From positions 1 to 9,211 of the forward strand of contig JAFTNB010000120.1 of NCBI GenBank assembly GCA_017452115.1: DNA of 9,211 nucleotides, in the 5' to 3' direction. A program made the position numbers and the translations under genes. Positions 543 through 9,211 of this stretch are shown one piece after another. The notes under the pieces are model-generated. The model ran no database searches, was not told where the DNA came from, and was given only the letters and a program-made list of their open reading frames with translations. The stretch comes from Alphaproteobacteria bacterium (lineage in GTDB: Bacteria; Pseudomonadota; Alphaproteobacteria; RF32; CAG-239). How positions within the stretch are numbered: the first letter of the stretch is position 1; each line of letters begins with the position of its first letter.

Positions 543-785
543 CTAAAAGTTCTTACGATAATCATCCAGCAAATCACAAAAATCCGTTGCCTGATATACT
601 TCTTGCACTGTTGGCACAGAAGCTTCAAAAACATTTAATTGACGATTAGATTGGGCTGCCTGCCAATGTTGTTGCTGAAAATGGCGGATTGACTTATTAA
701 CTGCAATATTTTTATCATTATAACATGCAGATAATGCCTCATTAATCAGGCGATACATTTGACTATAACTAATATCCACATTCAT
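543..785 (-). CDS. unrecognised protein, probably the 5' part of a frameshifted gene
   Basis: I do not recognise this 80-aa product (MNVDISYSQMYRLINEAL...). It is mostly polar and predicted helical by eye, with a Gln-rich stretch (FQQQHWQAAQSNRQ, about residues 35-48), no signal peptide and no membrane segment. The ATG at 785 has GGAG 7 nt upstream, which is better than the in-frame TTG at 800. It ends DDYRKNF at a TAG, but moving one base in the AA at 554-553 gives DDYRKELLAEYNERALEV and runs straight into the next frame. This is therefore probably the first third of a 232-aa protein. The gap to the secreted-protein gene upstream is 65 nt with no terminator seen. Confidence 0.5.
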   Translation of the reverse strand: MNVDISYSQMYRLINEALSACYNDKNIAVNKSIRHFQQQHWQAAQSNRQLNVFEASVPTVQEVYQATDFCDLLDDYRKNF

Positions 786-850
786 TGATACTCTCCACAA
801 TGATGTTCAGATAACAATATAGCACAGATATTATTAAAATGCGAGAAAAA

Positions 851-1469: not shown

Positions 1470-2189
1470 TTAGCAGACACGAGCAATAGTCAAAGCATCC
1501 ACCGAAGCGGCTCCAGCTTTGTGCAAAGCAAGGGCGCATTCTTTTAATGTTGATCCGGTAGTCATAACATCATCAACCAACACAACATGTTTACCGCGAA
1601 TTTTTTCCGGAGATTTAATTTGAAAAGCATTACGAACATTTTTAATACGTGCAGCACCGGAAAATTCAACTTGAGGTCTGGTTTTTATATGTCGTTGTAT
1701 TGCAGTATACTCAACAGGTAGTCCACTCCTTTTACTTAACTGATTACACAATAATGCTGATTGGTTATATCGTCGTTTAAGCAAACGAGTATAATGTAAC
1801 GGAACCGGAACCAAAACTTCTGCTCCGCTATTCCATATATCTTTACCAGCATTATACATCCAATCACCTAAAACTTTAGCATTTTCGGTTTTATCTAAAA
1901 ATTTAAAGCTTAATATCATATTTTTAGACTTATCATCATACCGAAAAGCAGAACGGCTATAACGGAAATGGGGTTTTAACTCTTGCAAACAAGAAGCGCA
2001 ATATACCATACTGCCGGATGGTTTTTCATCTAAAGGACGTCCACATTTTTCACAATAAGGACGGCTTATAAAATTAATTTCATTAAAACATTCAGGACAA
2101 AGACCATCTTCCGTACCAGCCAAAATCTTACCACATTTAATGCAGCGAGGCGGTAAAAAAGCGTTTAAAACAGAAGATAAAAGCCTCAT
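1470..2189 (-). CDS. comF: ComF-family protein (zinc finger plus phosphoribosyltransferase fold)
   Basis: ComF/GntX-type protein, cytosolic, associated in other bacteria with DNA uptake and single-strand DNA handling during transformation. The 239-aa product has an N-terminal double zinc-ribbon with four CxxC pairs (Cys16/19, 31/34, 46/49, 64/67). The phosphoribosyltransferase fold follows: LVPVPLHYTRLLKRRYNQS in the middle, typical of the family, and the PRPP-binding loop VDDVMTTGST with Asp206-Asp207 near the C-terminus. Length is normal for the family. The ATG comes 1 nt after the sucD stop, so it is probably coupled; its own ribosome site is weak. A competence role in this organism is inference: no other competence gene is in view, and orphan ComF proteins are common in alphaproteobacteria. 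Confidence 0.92.
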   Translation of the reverse strand: MRLLSSVLNAFLPPRCIKCGKILAGTEDGLCPECFNEINFISRPYCEKCGRPLDEKPSGSMVYCASCLQELKPHFRYSRSAFRYDDKSKNMILSFKFLDKTENAKVLGDWMYNAGKDIWNSGAEVLVPVPLHYTRLLKRRYNQSALLCNQLSKRSGLPVEYTAIQRHIKTRPQVEFSGAARIKNVRNAFQIKSPEKIRGKHVVLVDDVMTTGSTLKECALALHKAGAASVDALTIARVC

Positions 2190-2190
2190 C

Positions 2191-3063
2191 TTAACCAGCC
2201 ATTTTTTGTAGTTCTTCGTGAATTTGCCCTATCCGATTGACAACAATCATACCGGATTTACTCATTGCTTCTTTTTTATCTTGAACAGAAACATAGCCTT
2301 GGGTAATTATATCTCCAGCATATCCCATCTTATGTCCTAAAGGAACCGCATTACCTGCAACAAAGCTAATTATAGGCTTTTTATGCTCTAAAGATTGATA
2401 GTAATATGCAGCCTCTTCTTCAAAACTTCCTCCCAATTGTCCAATAAGTACAACTGCATCAGTATCATCATCATTCATAAACGCTTTTAAAGTATCGACA
2501 AAATCAATACCAATCATCATATCATCCCCAAGACCAATCACCGTAGATTGTCCTAATCCTGCTTTTTTTGTTTCTATCACGGCTTCATAAGTTAAAGTTG
2601 ACGAACGAGATACTATACCAATATGCCCTTGATTATGAATATTTTCAGGAAAAATACCTAATCGTGCAACTCCAGGTGTGATAATTCCGGGGGTGTTGGG
2701 ACCTATAAGCTTGGTATTACTACCTTTAAGAATTGATTTTATCTCCATCATATCGCGCAGAGGTACACTATCGGCAATGCAAACTACTAAATCAAGTTCT
2801 GCTTCCGCGGCTTCAATTACAGCTTCTTTTACGGAACGAGCGGGCACATACATTACACTGGCGTTAGCTCCGGTAGCGGCTACTGCTTCTTTTACTGTAT
2901 TAAAAACCGGCATGCCTAAATGTTCATTTCCGCCTTTTCCGGGGGTAACTCCAGCTACAACATTTGTTCCATAATCTAAAGAACGGCGGATATGGAAAGT
3001 TGCTTGAGTACCGGTAATACCTTGGCAAAGGACTTTAGTATGTTGATTGACCAGAATTGACAT
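2191..3063 (-). CDS. sucD: SucD-like succinyl-CoA ligase alpha subunit lacking the phospho-histidine
   Basis: The family joins succinate and CoA using NTP through a phospho-histidine in this subunit. The 290-aa frame has normal length and is about half identical to E. coli SucD by eye: GVTPGKGG (38-45), VFNTVKEAVAATGA (53-66), VSRS.TLTYEAV and GGSFEEEAA are all recognisable. However, the catalytic GHAG motif reads GYAG (Tyr248, codon 2322-2320), the partner Glu of IGEIGG is Gln209 (codon 2439-2437), GPNCPG reads GPNTPG (Thr124), SRSGTLT reads SRSSTLT (Ser155), and GxGGDP reads GLGDDM. The coenzyme-binding GxTGxQG reads GITGTQA. So the ligase reaction is not expected. The ATG shares its A with the sucC stop (TAATG), with GAGG upstream. 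The intact frame suggests either recent decay or a retained non-catalytic role. Confidence 0.9.
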   Translation of the reverse strand: MSILVNQHTKVLCQGITGTQATFHIRRSLDYGTNVVAGVTPGKGGNEHLGMPVFNTVKEAVAATGANASVMYVPARSVKEAVIEAAEAELDLVVCIADSVPLRDMMEIKSILKGSNTKLIGPNTPGIITPGVARLGIFPENIHNQGHIGIVSRSSTLTYEAVIETKKAGLGQSTVIGLGDDMMIGIDFVDTLKAFMNDDDTDAVVLIGQLGGSFEEEAAYYYQSLEHKKPIISFVAGNAVPLGHKMGYAGDIITQGYVSVQDKKEAMSKSGMIVVNRIGQIHEELQKMAG

Positions 3064-3425
3064 TAATCATTTTCCTCTACTGCTTTTATCAGAATATCTA
3101 CAGCTGTTTCCATATCATCAGCAATAATTATAGGTAATTTTGAATGCTCTAAAATCTCTTTAGCTTCATCTTTATTAGTCCCCTCAAAACGGACAACCAA
3201 CGGGACATTCAATCCAACTTCTGAAGCAGCAGCTATAATTCCTTCAGCAATTAAATTACAACGCAAAAATCCGCCAAGAATATTAATTAAAATACCTTCG
3301 ACACGAGGGTTAGTCATAATAATCTTAATACCGGAAGCAATTTTATCCTTATCAACACCACCCTTTACATTTAGAAAGCATGACATACCGCTGCCTTTGC
3401 TCTGCAGCAAATCAAGTGCAGCCAT
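3063..3425 (-). CDS. C-terminal fragment of the sucC-like gene (CoA-ligase domain)
   Basis: After the in-frame TAA the first usable start codon is the ATG at 3425, which lies inside the conserved NGxGxAM motif. A protein started there (120 aa) would lack the GNIGCIVNG segment that begins the domain. It keeps ILINILGGFLRCN (family: VLVNIFGGIVRCD) and ends with the typical Ala/Val-rich tail. There is no clear ribosome site for it. Its stop overlaps the sucD ATG by 1 nt (TAATG), preserving the normal sucC-sucD junction. Independent expression is doubtful. Confidence 0.4.
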   Translation of the reverse strand: MAALDLLQSKGSGMSCFLNVKGGVDKDKIASGIKIIMTNPRVEGILINILGGFLRCNLIAEGIIAAASEVGLNVPLVVRFEGTNKDEAKEILEHSKLPIIIADDMETAVDILIKAVEEND

Positions 3426-3506
3426 AGCTATACCATCACCATTTACAATACAACCGATATTGCCCTCAAAATCACAATAGTTAAATCCATACTTTTTTGC
3501 TTTATT

Positions 3507-4265
3507 TTATTGATCATCTTCTTCATATTCATCTTCTAAATTTCTGATTTCCGGCTGACGATATAAAGCATTTTTATCAAAAGATATTTTTGCATCAAGT
3601 GCAATTAAAGAACCATTACGTTTAATGCCGACCGGATTAATTTCTATCATAGAGGCATCGTAAGTAATAAAGGTTTTATGCAAACCTTTAACAAAGGTCT
3701 TTAAACTATTAAAACTTTTAGGTTTCAATTTAAGAAATTCCATAATTTCTTCTAATTGAGTTTTAGAGGCTCCTTTTTTTAAATCAAGGCGTATTTTGAG
3801 AATTTTTTCAGGACAAGTAAGAGCTAATGTTTCAATATCATCACCACCAACTTCTGCAATGAGCAAAGTTAATGCCGGCAACATTCTATCAATTACTAAT
3901 CCAGCATAAAAGATACGATTGACTTTAGCAAATTCTTCTACATAGATACGCCCGACCAGTTTGCCTTTAGGGCCGGTTTGTACAGTAACCAACGTCGAAC
4001 CCAACATTTGCTCGGCATCTAACAAAATAGCACGCCGAGTTTTAGGTAAACGTATTCCACCGCCTTTACCTGCTTTTTTTTCAATAAATCGACCTCGATT
4101 ACGAGCACCGGATTGAATTTGCGATTTCAGCACCCACGGGCCTCTAGAAGATACTTCTCCGGCAACAGTCTTTGCCTCTAACGGAGTATAAGCAATTTTG
4201 CCACGTGGTATCTCAATACCATGACACTTGAGAATTTTTTTAGCCTGATACTCGTGGATATTCAT
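3507..4265 (-). CDS. N-terminal fragment of the sucC-like gene (ATP-grasp domain)
   Basis: If translated as it stands, the first part of the interrupted gene gives 252 residues containing the ATP-grasp domain alone, ending in an acidic tail EDEYEEDDQ. It keeps EINP (208-211) and ALDAK (222-226), where Asn210 and Asp224 correspond to the Mg-coordinating pair of E. coli SucC, but the glycine-rich ATP loop is changed. The ATG at 4265 has GAGG 7 nt upstream, overlapping the end of sufE; a GTG at 4277 overlapping sufE by 4 nt is an unlikely alternative. Without the second domain it cannot form a normal ligase. Confidence 0.6.
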   Translation of the reverse strand: MNIHEYQAKKILKCHGIEIPRGKIAYTPLEAKTVAGEVSSRGPWVLKSQIQSGARNRGRFIEKKAGKGGGIRLPKTRRAILLDAEQMLGSTLVTVQTGPKGKLVGRIYVEEFAKVNRIFYAGLVIDRMLPALTLLIAEVGGDDIETLALTCPEKILKIRLDLKKGASKTQLEEIMEFLKLKPKSFNSLKTFVKGLHKTFITYDASMIEINPVGIKRNGSLIALDAKISFDKNALYRQPEIRNLEDEYEEDDQ

Positions 4266-4273
4266 AATGTTCC

Positions 4274-4684
4274 TCACAAAATGGATGCATAATAACGAAT
4301 TTTTTCGGTCATGGCTCCTAAACCATTGCGGCGACTAGGGCTTAAATGTTCAGACAATCCCAGTTTAGCAAAAATATTTTCAACTTCAATTTCTTTAATT
4401 TGTTGCGGAGTTTTATGTGTAAAAATACTTAAAACAATTGCTATAATTCCCTTAACGATGGCTGCATCACTATCGCCGCGAAAATTTATCAGTTTTTTTC
4501 CAGCTTCTTCTATTACATCCGGAACTAACCAAACTTGTGACTGACAGCCGCTGACTTTCCATTCTTCGCTATGCAATGCAGGCGGTAATTGAGGCAAATG
4601 TTCTCCCAAGTCGATAAGATAACGATACTTGTCTTCCCAATCGTCAAAAAGTTCAAAATTTTCGATTAATTCTTGTATATCCAT
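4274..4684 (-). CDS. sufE: SufE, sulfur acceptor for SufS
   Basis: Accepts the persulfide sulfur from SufS and delivers it to the SufBCD scaffold. The 136-aa product matches E. coli SufE in length (138). The acceptor cysteine is Cys47 in VSGCQSQVWL, and DSDAAIVKG (71-79) and LSPSRRNGLGAM (115-126) are family signatures. The start is the ATG at 4684 (MDIQELIENF), 1 nt after the hydrolase stop, with AAGGTG upstream; longer in-frame reading would run into the hydrolase gene. The stop TGA is followed 8 nt later by the sucC ATG, and that GTGAGG region carries the sucC ribosome site. Placement three genes after sufS, with a hydrolase between, is unusual but the protein itself is canonical. Confidence 0.96.
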   Translation of the reverse strand: MDIQELIENFELFDDWEDKYRYLIDLGEHLPQLPPALHSEEWKVSGCQSQVWLVPDVIEEAGKKLINFRGDSDAAIVKGIIAIVLSIFTHKTPQQIKEIEVENIFAKLGLSEHLSPSRRNGLGAMTEKIRYYASIL

Positions 4685-4685
4685 A

Positions 4686-5528
4686 TTATTCACCTTTTTG
4701 ATATTTTCGAGCGGCATTAGCCAGTGCAGAAAATAAATTTTTAGCTTCGGAGGAACGACGCCATAAATATTCAGGATGCCACTGCACACCAAGCGCAAAC
4801 CAATCCCCACGTATTTCTACGGCTTCAACATTGCCATCAGAAGAACGAGCCGATACAATTATCGGCAAATCATCCGCTAATTCAGCAACGCCTTCACTAT
4901 GTACAGAATTTACCATAATTTCAGGCTTATTACCACATATTATCGCAAGTCTGGTATTTTCGACAATCGCAACGGCATGAGCATCTTGACGTTTGTCAAA
5001 TTTATGAGGTAAGCGACTACAAAGTTCTTGAACTACATTTGTATACATTTTAGCTCCGAAATAACCAGACAACATCTGAAATCCGGCACAAATACCCAAA
5101 ACAGGCAATTGATATTGTTTTGCGACCGAAATAGCATCAAGATATGCTAAAGAGCGTTTTGACACATGATGTGTATCGGGTAATTTTTCAGGAAACAGGT
5201 AATATTCTGCCGGAGAATCGAATGAACCTCCAATCAATAATATTGCATTTAAATCTAAATTGATAATTTGCGAACGAATATTATCATAAGTTAAAAAACG
5301 CAGATTAACATTTTGAGATAACAAAGCCTCAACATATGGCTCATCAATTACATATCCGTCATATCCATTTTCTAAAGCCATAATTATGCCTATATTAGGA
5401 GCATATGGGTTTTCTTTTATATCCGGAAGTCGAAGCTCGCTATCAACTTCCAATATTTTTGCAGGTACGACAAAAGAATCGATATCACGACCAGAAAAAC
5501 GAAAACGTTTAAGATAGATTTTCGACAT
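4686..5528 (-). CDS. class I glutamine amidotransferase-like hydrolase (peptidase C26, PuuD-like)
   Basis: Predicted cytosolic gamma-glutamyl hydrolase of the C26/PuuD family, which cleaves gamma-glutamyl amides such as gamma-glutamyl-GABA. Of 280 residues, about 45-280 form the amidotransferase-like domain. Visible: LIGGSFDSPAEYY (98-110), the nucleophile elbow LGICAGFQ with Cys147, MVNSVHSEGV (205-214), which resembles the PuuD VNSLHGQG segment, and the His-Glu pair in VQWHPE (His251, Glu253). The catalytic triad is therefore complete. An N-terminal stretch of about 43 residues precedes the domain; its role is unknown. The ATG start has TAGGAG upstream. The stop is 1 nt before the sufE ATG and the tail supplies the sufE ribosome site (AAGGTG), so the two are coupled. 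Substrate is not determined by the sequence; a glutathione- or polyamine-related gamma-glutamyl compound is possible. Confidence 0.85.
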   Translation of the reverse strand: MSKIYLKRFRFSGRDIDSFVVPAKILEVDSELRLPDIKENPYAPNIGIIMALENGYDGYVIDEPYVEALLSQNVNLRFLTYDNIRSQIINLDLNAILLIGGSFDSPAEYYLFPEKLPDTHHVSKRSLAYLDAISVAKQYQLPVLGICAGFQMLSGYFGAKMYTNVVQELCSRLPHKFDKRQDAHAVAIVENTRLAIICGNKPEIMVNSVHSEGVAELADDLPIIVSARSSDGNVEAVEIRGDWFALGVQWHPEYLWRRSSEAKNLFSALANAARKYQKGE

Positions 5529-5541
5529 TTAATATTTACTC

Positions 5542-5976
5542 CTAAAACATCTCAAACATCATTTTTGCTTCGTCGCTTAAACACTCAAAAGTCCAAGCTG
5601 GTTCCCAAACTAATTTAACTTTCACCTCGCCAACACCGTCAAGAGCAGCTACAGCCTCAGCAGCTTGCGCGGGCAATATTCCGGCAACAGGGCAGGTTGG
5701 AGCCGTTACAGTCATATCAATTTCAACATTACCATTATCTAAAATACGGATATCATAAATTAACCCCATATCCCAAATATTTATCATTATTTCAGGATCT
5801 GAAACCGTTTTAAGAGCATTAACAATATCCTCTTTAGCGGCAATATGAGAACCTTTCGGCAATGGATTGCCAAGATTTACCTTATAATCTTTATCCGGAA
5901 ACGGTTGTACCATTGCATCAAGTAAATTTGCTTCATCAAGAGAGATTTCATTATCTGAATCTTGTTCATCTGACAT
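5542..5976 (-). CDS. sufT: SUF-associated DUF59/MIP18-family protein (SufT-like)
   Basis: Small cytosolic Fe-S maturation factor of the DUF59 (MIP18/PaaD-like) family, commonly encoded in alphaproteobacterial suf operons after sufS. The 144-aa product has an acidic, low-complexity N-terminal tail (about residues 1-35) followed by the DUF59 core: SDPEIMINIWDMGLIYDI (59-76), then the conserved cysteine in TAPTCPVAG (Cys95), then the SUF-type C-terminal segment LVWEPAWTFECLSDEAKMM. The usual motif is DPEIPVNIYDLGLIY; the present MINIWDM is a mild variant. The start is an ATG with AAAGGT just upstream. It follows sufS after an 83-nt gap that contains a palindrome, and precedes the hydrolase by 13 nt. 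The family role in cluster maturation is established, but the exact client is unknown. The symbol is by family position; E. coli has no sufT in its suf operon. Confidence 0.9.
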   Translation of the reverse strand: MSDEQDSDNEISLDEANLLDAMVQPFPDKDYKVNLGNPLPKGSHIAAKEDIVNALKTVSDPEIMINIWDMGLIYDIRILDNGNVEIDMTVTAPTCPVAGILPAQAAEAVAALDGVGEVKVKLVWEPAWTFECLSDEAKMMFEMF

Positions 5977-6059: not shown

Positions 6060-7274
6060 TTAGAAAAAACTTGAAACCTTATACAAGGCTTGAATAAATC
6101 TATCAATATCTTCTCTAGATGTATAAAGTCCGATTGAAGCTCGCGCTAACGAATTATATCCCATTCTTTTAACCAGCGGTTCTGCACAATGATGCCCTGT
6201 GCGAATCGACACTCCTTCTTTATCTAAAATAAAAGCTACATCTTGTGCATGTATTCCGTTAAGGTCAAAAGAAAAAACGCCACCTTTATCCGGCGCCGTA
6301 CCAATAATTTTAAGTCCGGCAATTTCTTGCAATTGTTGAGAAGCATAAACGATTAAATCTTGTTCATGAGCTTCCAGACGAGCCCAACCAATATTCATCA
6401 TATATTTTAATGCGCTACCAAGAGCGATGGCATCTACAATTGCCGGAGTACCAGCTTCAAAACGAGAGGGAGGCAAAGCATAAGTTGTATGTTCAAAACT
6501 AACCGTATCCACCATATCGCCGCCAACCTGATAGGGAAGCATTTGTTCTAACACAGACATTTTTCCATATAAAACCCCTACTCCTGACGGTCCATAAGTT
6601 TTATGTCCGGAAAAAGCTAAAAAATCGCAATCCCAATCTTGAACATCTATTTGACGATGCACCGCATACTGACAGGCATCAACAGCAAACAAAGCTCCGA
6701 CTTTATGGGCTTGTGATACCATTTTTTTGATAGGGAAAACCGTTCCTAAAACATTAGACATTGCCGTAACGGAAACCAATTTGGTTTTTTCGTTTAATAA
6801 TTTTAAATATTCATCTTCAATATAGCTACCATCATTAGCTATTTTAAATATTTTTAACTTAATTCCCAATTCATCACGCAAAATTTGCCATGGTATTAAG
6901 TTGGCATGATGTTCTGCCTCAGAAATTAAAACCTCATCTCCGGTTTTTAGAAAATTTCTTCCCCAACTGTATGCTATTAAATTAAAAGCCTCTGTTGCAT
7001 TTCGGGTATAAATAATTTCATGTGAAGAAGCTGCATTAATAAAAGTTTTAATAATTTCTCTAGCTTGTTCGTACAATCCGGTTATTTGTTCAGAAAGATA
7101 ATAAGAACCGCGATGTACATTGGCATAAGTTCCACTATATACACGTACCAATGTATCGATTACACATTGGGGTTTTTGTGCAGATGCCGCTGTATCCAAA
7201 AAAGTATTCGGCTTACCATTAATTTGTATGTTTAATATTGGAAAATCTTTGCGAATCTCGTTAATATCATACAT
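6060..7274 (-). CDS. sufS: SufS, PLP-dependent cysteine desulfurase (group II)
   Basis: Takes sulfur from L-cysteine as an enzyme persulfide and supplies it for Fe-S cluster building. The 404-aa product covers the whole class V aminotransferase fold. Residues visible: LDTAASAQKP near the N-terminus, the PLP-stacking His in EHHANLIPWQ (His122), VDACQ (Asp199, Gln202), the Schiff-base lysine in FSGHKTYGPSG (Lys225), and the catalytic cysteine in RTGHHCAEP (Cys363). Each is one less than the E. coli SufS numbering, so alignment is nearly gap-free. The RTGHHCAEP loop is the SufS/group II type rather than IscS. The start is the ATG at 7274 (MYDINEIRKDFP), with GGAG 9 nt upstream and 14 nt after sufD. 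An upstream in-frame GTG at 7310 would overlap sufD and is less likely. SufE, its partner, lies three genes downstream. Confidence 0.97.
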   Translation of the reverse strand: MYDINEIRKDFPILNIQINGKPNTFLDTAASAQKPQCVIDTLVRVYSGTYANVHRGSYYLSEQITGLYEQAREIIKTFINAASSHEIIYTRNATEAFNLIAYSWGRNFLKTGDEVLISEAEHHANLIPWQILRDELGIKLKIFKIANDGSYIEDEYLKLLNEKTKLVSVTAMSNVLGTVFPIKKMVSQAHKVGALFAVDACQYAVHRQIDVQDWDCDFLAFSGHKTYGPSGVGVLYGKMSVLEQMLPYQVGGDMVDTVSFEHTTYALPPSRFEAGTPAIVDAIALGSALKYMMNIGWARLEAHEQDLIVYASQQLQEIAGLKIIGTAPDKGGVFSFDLNGIHAQDVAFILDKEGVSIRTGHHCAEPLVKRMGYNSLARASIGLYTSREDIDRFIQALYKVSSFF

Positions 7275-7288
7275 TAAAACATTCTCCG

Positions 7289-8575
7289 CTAAATTTGTTC
7301 TTTTAACCACGTTCTAATTGTTTCAGAATCGGCTTGTTGCAAAACATCATCTAGAAAAGCTTCAACTAAAATTCGGCGAGCGGTTTCTGCATCTATTCCG
7401 CGAGAACGCATATAAAATAATTGCTCTTCATTCAGCTCACCGCTAGCTGCCCCGTGAGAACATTTAACATCATCGGCAAAAATTTCAAGTTCTGGTTTAA
7501 CATCTATTTCAGCCCTATCACTTAATAACAAAGCTTGATGTAACTGATAACCTTCGGTTTGTTGTGCACCTTCGGCAATATGAATACGTCCTTGAAATAC
7601 ACCTTTTGCATCACCATCGACCACCCCTTTTACGAGTTGTTTGGAACGAGTGTGCGCACAAAGATGTTGAATATCTGTCGTTGTATCCAATGTAGCCCAA
7701 CCAGACATCTTGTATGCTGCATTAACTTTAGCTACAGCTTCTGGCTCCTGCAATTTTACGGTCACTTCATTGCGTCCGATATCGGCTCCTTCTTGAACAC
7801 AGAGGTTTGAATATTGTCCATAAGATTTGACCTGAACTAAATTTAATGCAATATGACAGGACTTGAATGCATCTTTTTGTAATTTATAATGATTGAGGCA
7901 AGCTTCTCGCCCGACGTATATTTCATTAACGACATTAACAAAATAACGAGATTTTTCTTCTCCCTGATAATGAAAATATTCTATAATTTCGGCTTTAGCT
8001 CCGTTTTCAACAATAATCAAATTGCGCAAATTATAAAATAAATTTTTATTGCCGGAATTGGTGTGTATATCAATAAACAAAGGCTTATCAAGTATAGTAT
8101 TTTTATGAATAAGAATAAACAAACCTTCTTCTAGATATGCTGTATTCAGAGCAGCAAAAGGATATTTTTTTAAATCAACTAATTTTCCTAATTTGGATTT
8201 AGGTTCCTCGTAAATATGTACCGCTTCAAGCAAAGTCATAACTTCCACACCTTGAGGAAGGCGTGGATGAGGAGGACAAAAGTATCCGTTACGAAAGCGA
8301 AAACAATAAGCATCAAAAGGTAATTCATAGTTATGGCAAGAACAACTACAATTATCATGACGGGTATGACAATCACAATGACATATATGCTCTTGTTCCT
8401 CCGGAAGCTCAAAATCATCTACAGTCAAAGCTCGTAGTTTGGTATATTTCCAAGCTTCGGTTTTAGATGTAGGCAATCCGGTTGCAACAAAAGTATCCCG
8501 TCCTTGTTGACGTAATGCATCTAGCCAAAATACATCACTACCATTCATTGTTTTATCTTGCAAAAGGCTACCCAT
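7289..8575 (-). CDS. sufD: SufD, Fe-S cluster scaffold subunit with a Cys/His-rich insertion
   Basis: Non-ATPase subunit of the SufBCD scaffold. The 428-aa product is close to the usual length (E. coli 423). The N-terminal helical part carries GLPTSKTEAWKYT, the typical SufD GLPT..E.WKYT signature. The middle is the beta-helix core, and the C-terminal part has DDVKCSHGA (Cys372, His374) followed by FYMRSRGI, both diagnostic. I chose the ATG at 8575, 1 nt after the sufC stop; a further in-frame extension would need a TTG inside sufC. The ribosome site is weak (AAAGAA), consistent with coupling to sufC. The oddity is residues 63-81, which hold six Cys and five His where E. coli SufD has none in the aligned linker (see the separate entry). 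The rest is ordinary SufD. Confidence 0.95.
   Translation of the reverse strand: MGSLLQDKTMNGSDVFWLDALRQQGRDTFVATGLPTSKTEAWKYTKLRALTVDDFELPEEQEHICHCDCHTRHDNCSCSCHNYELPFDAYCFRFRNGYFCPPHPRLPQGVEVMTLLEAVHIYEEPKSKLGKLVDLKKYPFAALNTAYLEEGLFILIHKNTILDKPLFIDIHTNSGNKNLFYNLRNLIIVENGAKAEIIEYFHYQGEEKSRYFVNVVNEIYVGREACLNHYKLQKDAFKSCHIALNLVQVKSYGQYSNLCVQEGADIGRNEVTVKLQEPEAVAKVNAAYKMSGWATLDTTTDIQHLCAHTRSKQLVKGVVDGDAKGVFQGRIHIAEGAQQTEGYQLHQALLLSDRAEIDVKPELEIFADDVKCSHGAASGELNEEQLFYMRSRGIDAETARRILVEAFLDDVLQQADSETIRTWLKEQI
8333..8389 (-). other. Cys/His cluster inside SufD (possible metal-binding insertion)
   Basis: SufD residues 63-81 read HICHCDCHTRHDNCSCSCH: six Cys (65, 67, 69, 76, 78, 80) and five His (63, 66, 70, 73, 81) in 19 residues, arranged as two CxCxCH units separated by five residues. 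It sits in the variable linker between the N-terminal helical segment and the conserved core. The DNA is internally repetitive, with TGTCAT and TGTGAT-like steps, so it may have arisen by short-repeat expansion. The spacing resembles a metal-binding or metallothionein-like patch; binding of metal is inference only. No such cluster is present in E. coli SufD as I recall its sequence. Confidence 0.7.
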
Positions 8576-8576
8576 A

Positions 8577-9211
8577 TTATTGTTCTTTCGTAAATTCGGC
8601 ATAACCGGTTTCTTCAAGTTCCAAAGCAAGATTTTTATCTCCGGATTTTACAATATGTCCATCCGAAAATACATGTACAAAATCCGGAACAATATAATTA
8701 AGCAGTTTCTGATAATGAGTAATGACAAGCATTGACATTTTTCCATTACGCAAAGAATTAATATTCTCGGCAACTATTTTCATTGCATCAATATCCAAAC
8801 CGGAATCCGCCTCATCAAGAATAGAAAAGCAAGGTTTCAGTATGGACATTTGCAGAGCCTCTAAACGTTTTTTCTCTCCGCCTGAAAAGCCAACATTAAT
8901 CGGGCGTTTCAGCATTTCATTGCTAATTTCCAGTTTTGATCCTTCTTCTTTTAAGGTTTTGAGAAATTCAAAAGTATCCAATTCCGGCAATTCATGGTGT
9001 TTACGCACTGCATTTACAGCATGTTTTAGAAATGTAGAAGTTGGAACTCCCGGAATTTCTACAGGATATTGCATACACAAAAAAATGCCTTCACGAGCAC
9101 GTTCTTCTGTAGACATTTGGCATAAATCTTTACCTTTAAAACGAATCGAACCGGAAGTAATTTCGTATCCGGGTTTTCCAGATAAAACATATGACAATGT
9201 TGATTTGCCTG
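8577..9211 (-). CDS. sufC: SufC, Fe-S assembly ABC ATPase (N-terminus cut by window edge)
   Basis: Cytosolic ATPase of the SUF iron-sulfur cluster scaffold, which works with SufB and SufD. The frame runs off the window end; the first complete codons read GKSTL, the end of the Walker A loop, so about 38 N-terminal residues are missing judged against E. coli SufC (248 aa). Visible in order: Q-loop region MQYPVEIPGV, ABC signature VGFSGGEKKR, Walker B/D-loop SILDEADSGLD, and the switch histidine in VITHYQ. These match SufC closely, including the family-typical YPVEIPGV and THYQ. An apparent TTG start at 9197 is only the Leu of GKSTL and is not a real start. The stop TAA lies 1 nt before the sufD ATG, which implies translational coupling. 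Upstream sufB is expected but cannot be seen. Confidence 0.96.
   Translation of the reverse strand, partial: GKSTLSYVLSGKPGYEITSGSIRFKGKDLCQMSTEERAREGIFLCMQYPVEIPGVPTSTFLKHAVNAVRKHHELPELDTFEFLKTLKEEGSKLEISNEMLKRPINVGFSGGEKKRLEALQMSILKPCFSILDEADSGLDIDAMKIVAENINSLRNGKMSMLVITHYQKLLNYIVPDFVHVFSDGHIVKSGDKNLALELEETGYAEFTKEQ

Follow-up and report, generated by a model that had tools for sequence, protein, structure and literature searches.

The window analysed here, a stretch of DNA with a total length of 9,211 nucleotides, raises the question of what an alpha subunit of succinyl-CoA synthetase (SCS) may be kept for once the residue that carries the phosphate has been replaced. In the canonical enzyme, as described in the available portion of PMC10342173, His246 of the alpha subunit is phosphorylated and is stabilised by Glu208α and Glu197β, and the available portion of PMC11494057 describes, for the SCS family, two power helices that aim their N-termini at the phosphate and a histidine that swings about 30 Å between the sites. 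The original prediction, made from the letters of the window, had proposed an intact frame of 290 codons for a SucD-like protein with Tyr for the phospho-His, Gln for its Glu partner and Thr for the family Cys. This was borne out by alignment with E. coli K-12 SucD (L129), by which the numbering of the window SucD was mapped to mature residues, and the frame is free of any stop or indel (Table 1). As heads of the power helices we take Gly154α and Ala266β. By family score the window SucD passes as a succinate-CoA ligase alpha subunit, with 367.6 bits against TIGR01019 (curated cut-off 353.2) and 366.6 bits against NF004230 (curated cut-off 336). Its AlphaFold2 model (mean pLDDT 88.1, pTM 0.87; below 50 in the tyrosine loop, residues 241–256) has SCS alpha chains as its best matches in the PDB (1scu_A, 48% identical, TM 0.94), and the matches include 2nu8, an engineered Cys123αThr E. 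coli enzyme with a replacement identical to that in the window SucD.

Table 1. Features of the window, in positions of the whole stretch.
Feature	Position	Strand	Remarks
SucD-like ORF (SCS alpha subunit homologue)	2191..3063	-	290 aa; no stop or indel; ORF list, family scan, predicted fold
Codon 248, TAT = Tyr	2320..2322	-	place of phospho-His246 of E. coli SucD; alignment
Codon 209, CAA = Gln	2437..2439	-	place of Glu208; alignment
Codon 124 = Thr	2692..2694	-	place of Cys123; alignment
Codon 155 = Ser	2599..2601	-	canonical Gly154, head of alpha power helix; Ser in 70/70 order sequences
Codon 180 = Asp	2524..2526	-	canonical Gly179; Asp in 70/70 order sequences
Codon 251 = Asp	2311..2313	-	canonical Ala249; Asp/Glu in 69/70 order sequences
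SucC-like ORF, N-terminal ATP-grasp part (252 aa + stop)	3507..4265	-	Mg-ATP residues kept
In-frame TAA interrupting SucC in the window assembly	3507..3509	-	single SucC frame in relatives except L080
SucC C-terminal CoA-ligase part, after the TAA, same frame	3063..3506	-	family scan
SufE-like gene	4274..4684	-	precedes sucC by 150 bases or less in 70/70 order genomes/records; family scan
Class-I glutamine amidotransferase / peptidase C26 gene, inside cluster	4686..5528	-	family scan
SufT-like (SUF-associated, FeS_assembly_P) gene	5542..5976	-	family scan
SufS-like cysteine desulfurase	6060..7310	-	named from translation, family motifs
SufD-like	7289..8575	-	named from translation
SufC-like ATPase, cut by window end	8577..9209	-	named from translation
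ComF-like gene, 3' of sucD	1470..2189	-	within 150 bases in 68/70 order genomes/records

The substitution extends throughout the alphaproteobacterial order to which the window belongs (probably RF32 of GTDB; hereafter the order). At site 248, His was found in none of 70 distinct sequences of the order and in all 37 of the outgroup; the order carries Tyr in 63, Leu in five, Phe in one and Ile in one, the seven exceptions all coming from one genus, and Glu is found at site 209 in a single order sequence (L091). The set comprised 108 distinct SucD sequences, including those from 20 further order stretches, picked for distant genera, and from 20 outgroup stretches; 107 were scored, one partial E. 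coli piece lacking site 248. An earlier alignment, built from 29 loci of the order plus 120 protein clusters, which overlaps the 70 and is biased to near relatives because the clusters are the best 120 of 8000, gave Tyr248 in 149 of 149 and Glu209 in none. When 105 of these sequences (L099, L101 and L102 dropped) were placed in a maximum-likelihood tree with a midpoint root, all 70 from the order fell in one clade with support 100/99, on a bootstrap that had not settled and with a long-branch warning for L028 and L128, and the His label changes once. Since His is absent in every order relative read at this site, Tyr248 of the window is not a chance change. An assembly or sequencing error would be conceivable in a fragmented draft genome (62% complete, 232 contigs) whose SucC is interrupted by a single codon, but Tyr248 and Gln209 recur in many other genomes, and for these two residues such an error is barely credible. 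Because Leu, Ile or Phe stand in for Tyr in seven order sequences, tyrosine is not strictly required, and the emphasis first placed on it was too strong. Thr124 was weakened as a mark of the clade by a divergent His-bearing sequence with Thr (L128) and by the f2 member L028, which has Cys. L128, from the outgroup genome G047, is a second, divergent SucD copy with Thr for Cys123 in which both His and Glu are kept. An internal TGA in SucD of G017 proved to be the ordinary end of the gene.

A second, canonical SucD in the order was sought and rejected. SucD was matched in 147 of 153 order genomes (as fragments in G020 and G084), with one copy in 146 of them, a count in which not every genome was read at the His site, and with two copies, both without His, in G128. 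The proposed search for a second sucCD in the window's own genome likewise yielded no further SucD in the 62% that the draft covers. G128 (L092 and L093) is the sole order genome with two sucCD copies, by duplication or contamination. As for the six genomes in which SucD was not matched, two have sufE at or near a contig end, one of these contigs ending inside sucC, and four are also without sufE; true absence was rejected where the contig is visible (G021 and G170), an assembly gap accounting for it there.

The loss of histidine could be reconciled with an enzyme that is still a succinyl-CoA synthetase if the phosphate were relayed via Tyr248 or via the acidic codon 251, three places on. Such a relay is in line with Tyr in 63 of the 70 sequences, with Asp or Glu at codon 251 in 69, and with a SucD that passes the succinate-CoA ligase models, but we regard it as improbable. 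Tyr is replaced by Leu, Ile or Phe in one genus, which in itself makes tyrosine an unlikely phosphate carrier, L095 has Lys at codon 251, the loop is variable, and Glu208 is gone in 69 of 70. The metabolic surroundings point the same way, as five enzymes known to form or consume succinyl-CoA were searched and none exceeded cut-off in 34 order genomes.

These profile searches covered 34 genomes of the order (G000–G033; G000 is 62% complete) and 23 other genomes of the class. The E1 component of 2-oxoglutarate dehydrogenase (OGDH) was over cut-off in none of the 34 order genomes and in 17 of the 23 others, 2-oxoacid:acceptor oxidoreductase of the KGOR type (TIGR03710) in none versus five, SdhA/FrdA in none (five weak matches) versus 19 (SdhA), DapD in none (four weak matches) versus 18, and ALAS in none versus 18, with sub-cut-off scores of 294 to 312 bits in G007, G018 and G021. 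Methylmalonyl-CoA mutase was over cut-off in one order genome (a partial match, G012) compared to 13 others. Weak TIGR03710 matches occur in 33 of the 34 order genomes; most of the frames concerned are about 1190 aa long, as is usual for pyruvate:ferredoxin oxidoreductase, and a 2-oxoglutarate oxidoreductase of another type may be present in the order. A CoA-transferase profile was over cut-off in 17 of the 34, and proved to be of the acetate/3-oxoacid type in the two genomes read, G003 (A and B subunits) and G000 (B subunit). Loss of OGDH alone does not remove the histidine, since three outgroup genomes (G035, G041 and G056) have no OGDH match and keep both His and Glu.

In order to see where constraint has moved, substitution rates and site entropies were compared. 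Among 17 order pairs, Nei-Gojobori dN/dS lay at 0.025–0.065 in the 14 with finite dS, three being saturated; three rhizobial control pairs gave 0.040–0.074. Two of the three pairs that include the window are saturated and the third has a dS of 2.4 (dN/dS 0.059), which puts the window's own branch beyond judging. Across the order, the values amount to strong purifying selection. Recent release from selection, one of the two explanations originally offered, is not supported at the level of the clade, with His in none of the 70 sequences (nor in the overlapping 149) and dN/dS at 0.025–0.065.

Entropy, expressed relative to the mean of each set (alpha, 25 outgroup sequences, with 11 near-identical rows and L128 left out, versus 70 of the order; beta, eight outgroup versus 71 order rows), rises from outgroup to order in the His/Tyr loop (0.50 to 1.30), the Glu208 loop (0.49 to 1.17) and the TPGKGG CoA loop (0.93 to 1.36), the Lys of which remains in 57 of 70 order sequences. 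In the rest of the alpha subunit it falls in the power helix (0.30 to 0.14), GPNxPG (0.41 to 0.16), QGITGTQ (0.50 to 0.27) and YVPA (0.52 to 0.28), and rises in the GLGDD stretch (0.47 to 0.56). In the beta subunit it falls at Glu99 (1.24 to 0.69), Asp213 (0.88 to 0.53) and NIFGGI (0.41 to 0.25), is steady in DVGGG (0.26, 0.27), and rises, staying below the mean, in the Lys46-Arg54 stretch (0.25 to 0.40), Glu197-Asn199 (0.44 to 0.57) and the power helix (0.10 to 0.41). These shifts therefore indicate that the shuttle has been given up, while the interface pocket and the ATP site have not. CoA itself is disfavoured as the conserved ligand, because the TPGKGG loop is now more variable.

Conservation of the α/β interface pocket is high in the order, yet the residues that occupy it are new and almost fixed. 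In the alpha subunit, compared to 36 outgroup sequences (L128 and L102 left out), Ser replaces Gly154, Asp replaces Gly179 and Ala replaces Gly20 in all 70 order sequences. The beta subunit was read in 191 rows of the order against 19 outgroup sequences. These rows are the window, 70 loci and 120 clusters, without L080 and five repeated loci, with G033 entering twice and with L032 and L064 probably from one genome. The subunit has Asp or Glu for Ala266 in 181 rows, Cys for Asn285 in 187, Asn for Asp288 in 183, Lys for Gly290 in 186, Phe for Ile322 in 186, Asn for Asp326 in 178 and Ala for Gly357 in 188. The nucleotide and metal residues, which we take to be Lys46, Arg54, Glu99, Asn199 and Asp213 in E. 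coli SucC, are retained together with Glu197: Lys46 in 190 rows, Arg54, Glu99, Glu197 and Asp213 in all 191, and Asn199 in 186, the five exceptions having Thr, four of them in the window's own genus. Glu197β and the Mg-ATP residues are present in the window SucC as in the order; Glu107β is gone in most of the 191 rows. The f2 genome G033 (L028/L094) retains Cys124, His50β and Glu107β alongside Tyr, Gln and the new residues of the beta subunit, with position 322 occupied by Tyr and not Phe; this mixture fits a stepwise change with an early loss of histidine. In the SucC of this genome (L094, 599-2048), some 70 residues are also inserted around residue 323.

In the window itself sucC is interrupted, the TAA falling between the ATP-grasp part (3510–4265) and the CoA-ligase part. 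A single SucC frame is found in 93 of the 97 loci searched, outgroup loci counted in, and of the four exceptions three are copies of the locus in the window, while the fourth, L080, comes from a different genome of the order and has a single TAA roughly a dozen codons beyond the position of the window's stop. P0157, a protein cluster belonging to another lineage, terminates at the codon that ends the window SucC; read at the protein level, this may reflect a stop or a frameshift. No strong in-frame start was seen by eye close 3' of the TAA, as two working halves of a split gene would have called for. The nearest full-length relative of SucC among the matches listed, P0122 (400 aa), matches 96% of the N-terminal part at 86% identity; its AlphaFold model has SCS beta chains as best PDB matches (pLDDT 79.1, pTM 0.55), and because the pTM is only 0.55 no site geometry was taken from it. 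The stop may leave the complex broken in the strain of the window, or it may stem from an assembly error. For the order as a whole, these stops, the missing TCA partners, the end of P0157 at the window's codon and the relaxing CoA and shuttle loops are the points in favour of plain decay of an unused TCA-cycle enzyme. Decay of the clade is nevertheless rejected, since dN/dS is low, the new residues are nearly fixed and presence is near-universal, the six genomes without a match having sufE at or near a contig end (two) or no sufE (four), and since SucC is a single frame at 93 of 97 loci; we consider it very improbable. Retention and the loss of the ligase histidine, as the original prediction of a retained non-ligase role had it, are supported by this order-wide conservation, and the particular roles it named, CoA or nucleotide sensing and structural partnering, stay at the level of suggestions.

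SufE lies upstream of sucC in every one of 70 order genomes or records (68 numbered genomes plus two contigs with names; L032 and L064 probably represent a single genome), and ComF follows SucD within 150 bases in all but G019 and G174, where BLAST gave no ComF match. Of the 18 loci with more than 1.4 kb of upstream sequence, 17 have SufT and 15 have SufS ahead of sucC in the same orientation. The suf query genes had no match beside 18 outgroup sucCD loci (L029–L031, L034–L048; flanks of 1.5–4 kb). SucCD thus holds a constant position in the suf cluster; as evidence, gene order speaks to association and not to contact. The amidotransferase gene of the window sits between the SufT-like gene and sufE, and in L032 and L033 SufT adjoins SufE. 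Close to the N-terminus of the SufD-like ORF lies a stretch rich in Cys and His (8330-8389, minus strand; HICHCDCHTRHDNCSCSCHN), perhaps metal-binding, and a small ORF (543-800, minus strand) matches Spo0A_C weakly (20.6 bits, cut-off 25).

Compared to E. coli SucCD (EC 6.2.1.5), the complex of the order is alike in having both subunits, the full domain set, the sucC-sucD gene order and the Mg-ATP residues of SucC; it differs in the absence of the phospho-His and Glu208, in the changed power-helix residues and in a suf context where a TCA context was not found, and in the window also in the interrupted SucC. There are precedents for SCS relatives in other roles. In the type I and II acetyltransferases Pat/PatZ, according to the available portion of PMC8556138, the SCS-like domain is inactive and thought to bind and sense acetyl-CoA, and in type II it is inactive since the catalytic histidine is absent. 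The Pat domains share with the order the lack of histidine (type II), but are fused to a GNAT domain, of which none was found in SucD, the two parts of SucC and six other window proteins (nine scanned; SufS, SufD, SufC and the 88-516 ORF were left out of the family scan), and sequence similarity is weak (9isq_A, 1.7e-05). For FdrA/AllF, a protein of the SucD superfamily, the authors detected no SCS activity in what is available of PMC8550087, and the corresponding part of PMC11326118 reassigns it to the oxamic transcarbamylase of E. coli. Unlike the window SucD, FdrA/AllF has 555 aa and other partners, and the window SucD scores 29.8 bits against the FdrA model (cut-off 433). Citryl-CoA synthetase and ATP-citrate lyase have the same fold (6hxq_A, TM 0.90) at 33% identity or less to the window SucD, and both use a phospho-His. 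The order differs from Pat domains and from FdrA/AllF in that a full SucCD, with its two subunits, has been kept. Neither a His-less alphaproteobacterial SucCD nor a SucCD in a suf cluster was found in the open-access matches listed, judged by title and beginning of the abstract, with subscription journals and bioRxiv mostly outside.

At the level of sequence, then, the comparisons document an old, order-wide loss of the phospho-His. SucC and SucD have both been kept, as have the ATP site and an interface pocket with altered residues, in the suf cluster of genomes in which five usual enzymes of succinyl-CoA stayed below cut-off (34 searched). We infer that SucCD of the order is not a succinate-CoA ligase, and suggest more tentatively that it is a nucleotide- and ligand-binding partner of SUF; as a whole, this reading, of a His-less SucCD fixed in the SUF cluster of an entire order, is given a probability of roughly 0.4. 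With no group left to carry the phosphoryl, the ATP-grasp site would no longer be chemically coupled to the CoA/acyl site, which in family structures lies about 30 Å away, and with the sites uncoupled the complex would probably bind a nucleotide within SucC together with a small interface ligand. This bound state would then be passed on to a neighbour, for which SufE or the desulfurase step of SUF is the likeliest candidate. Several observations temper the proposal. The link to SUF is read from gene order, which may reflect a housekeeping operon, ComF being there too. Asn199 is Thr in five of 191 rows, Glu107β is mostly gone, and the Lys46-Arg54 and Glu197-Asn199 stretches are slightly less conserved. 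The TPGKGG loop is more variable, a 2-oxoglutarate oxidoreductase of another type is possible, and the window SucC is interrupted. A more specific version, in which SucCD is a fixed subunit pair of SUF, an ATP-grasp complex partnering SufE in which Ser, Asp and Lys refill the phosphate site between the power helices and ATP binding or cleavage gates sulfur transfer, would be rather unlikely in all its detail.

Given how well the ATP site is preserved, real catalysis on another acceptor can be defended as readily as sensing. Most ATP-grasp enzymes hand the phosphate directly to their substrate, and the closest rival to a partner of SUF is a direct ATP-grasp enzyme without a relay, that is, a different ATP-dependent ligase whose substrate might be linked to sulfur or cysteine. 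The presence of Lys46, Arg54, Glu99, Glu197, Asn199 and Asp213 in 186 to 191 of 191 rows, the interface pocket kept with new charged residues, and the SUF neighbourhood all agree with such a ligase. Against it, the pocket lies some 30 Å from the ATP site according to the available portion of PMC11494057, no substitute carrier is evident and no substrate can be named, which leaves it possible though doubtful.

Two relatives (P0082 and P0133) are named succinate-CoA ligase by a source, and because SucD passes NF004230 even in the window and relatives are so named, metabolic models built for these genomes would credit them with a ligase that they likely lack. The order amounts to a natural experiment, in which a two-site enzyme has been deprived of its carrier residue: relaxation is seen in the shuttle loop, but in neither the ATP site nor the pocket. 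An ATP-grasp complex would be added to iron-sulfur assembly if the link to SUF is real.
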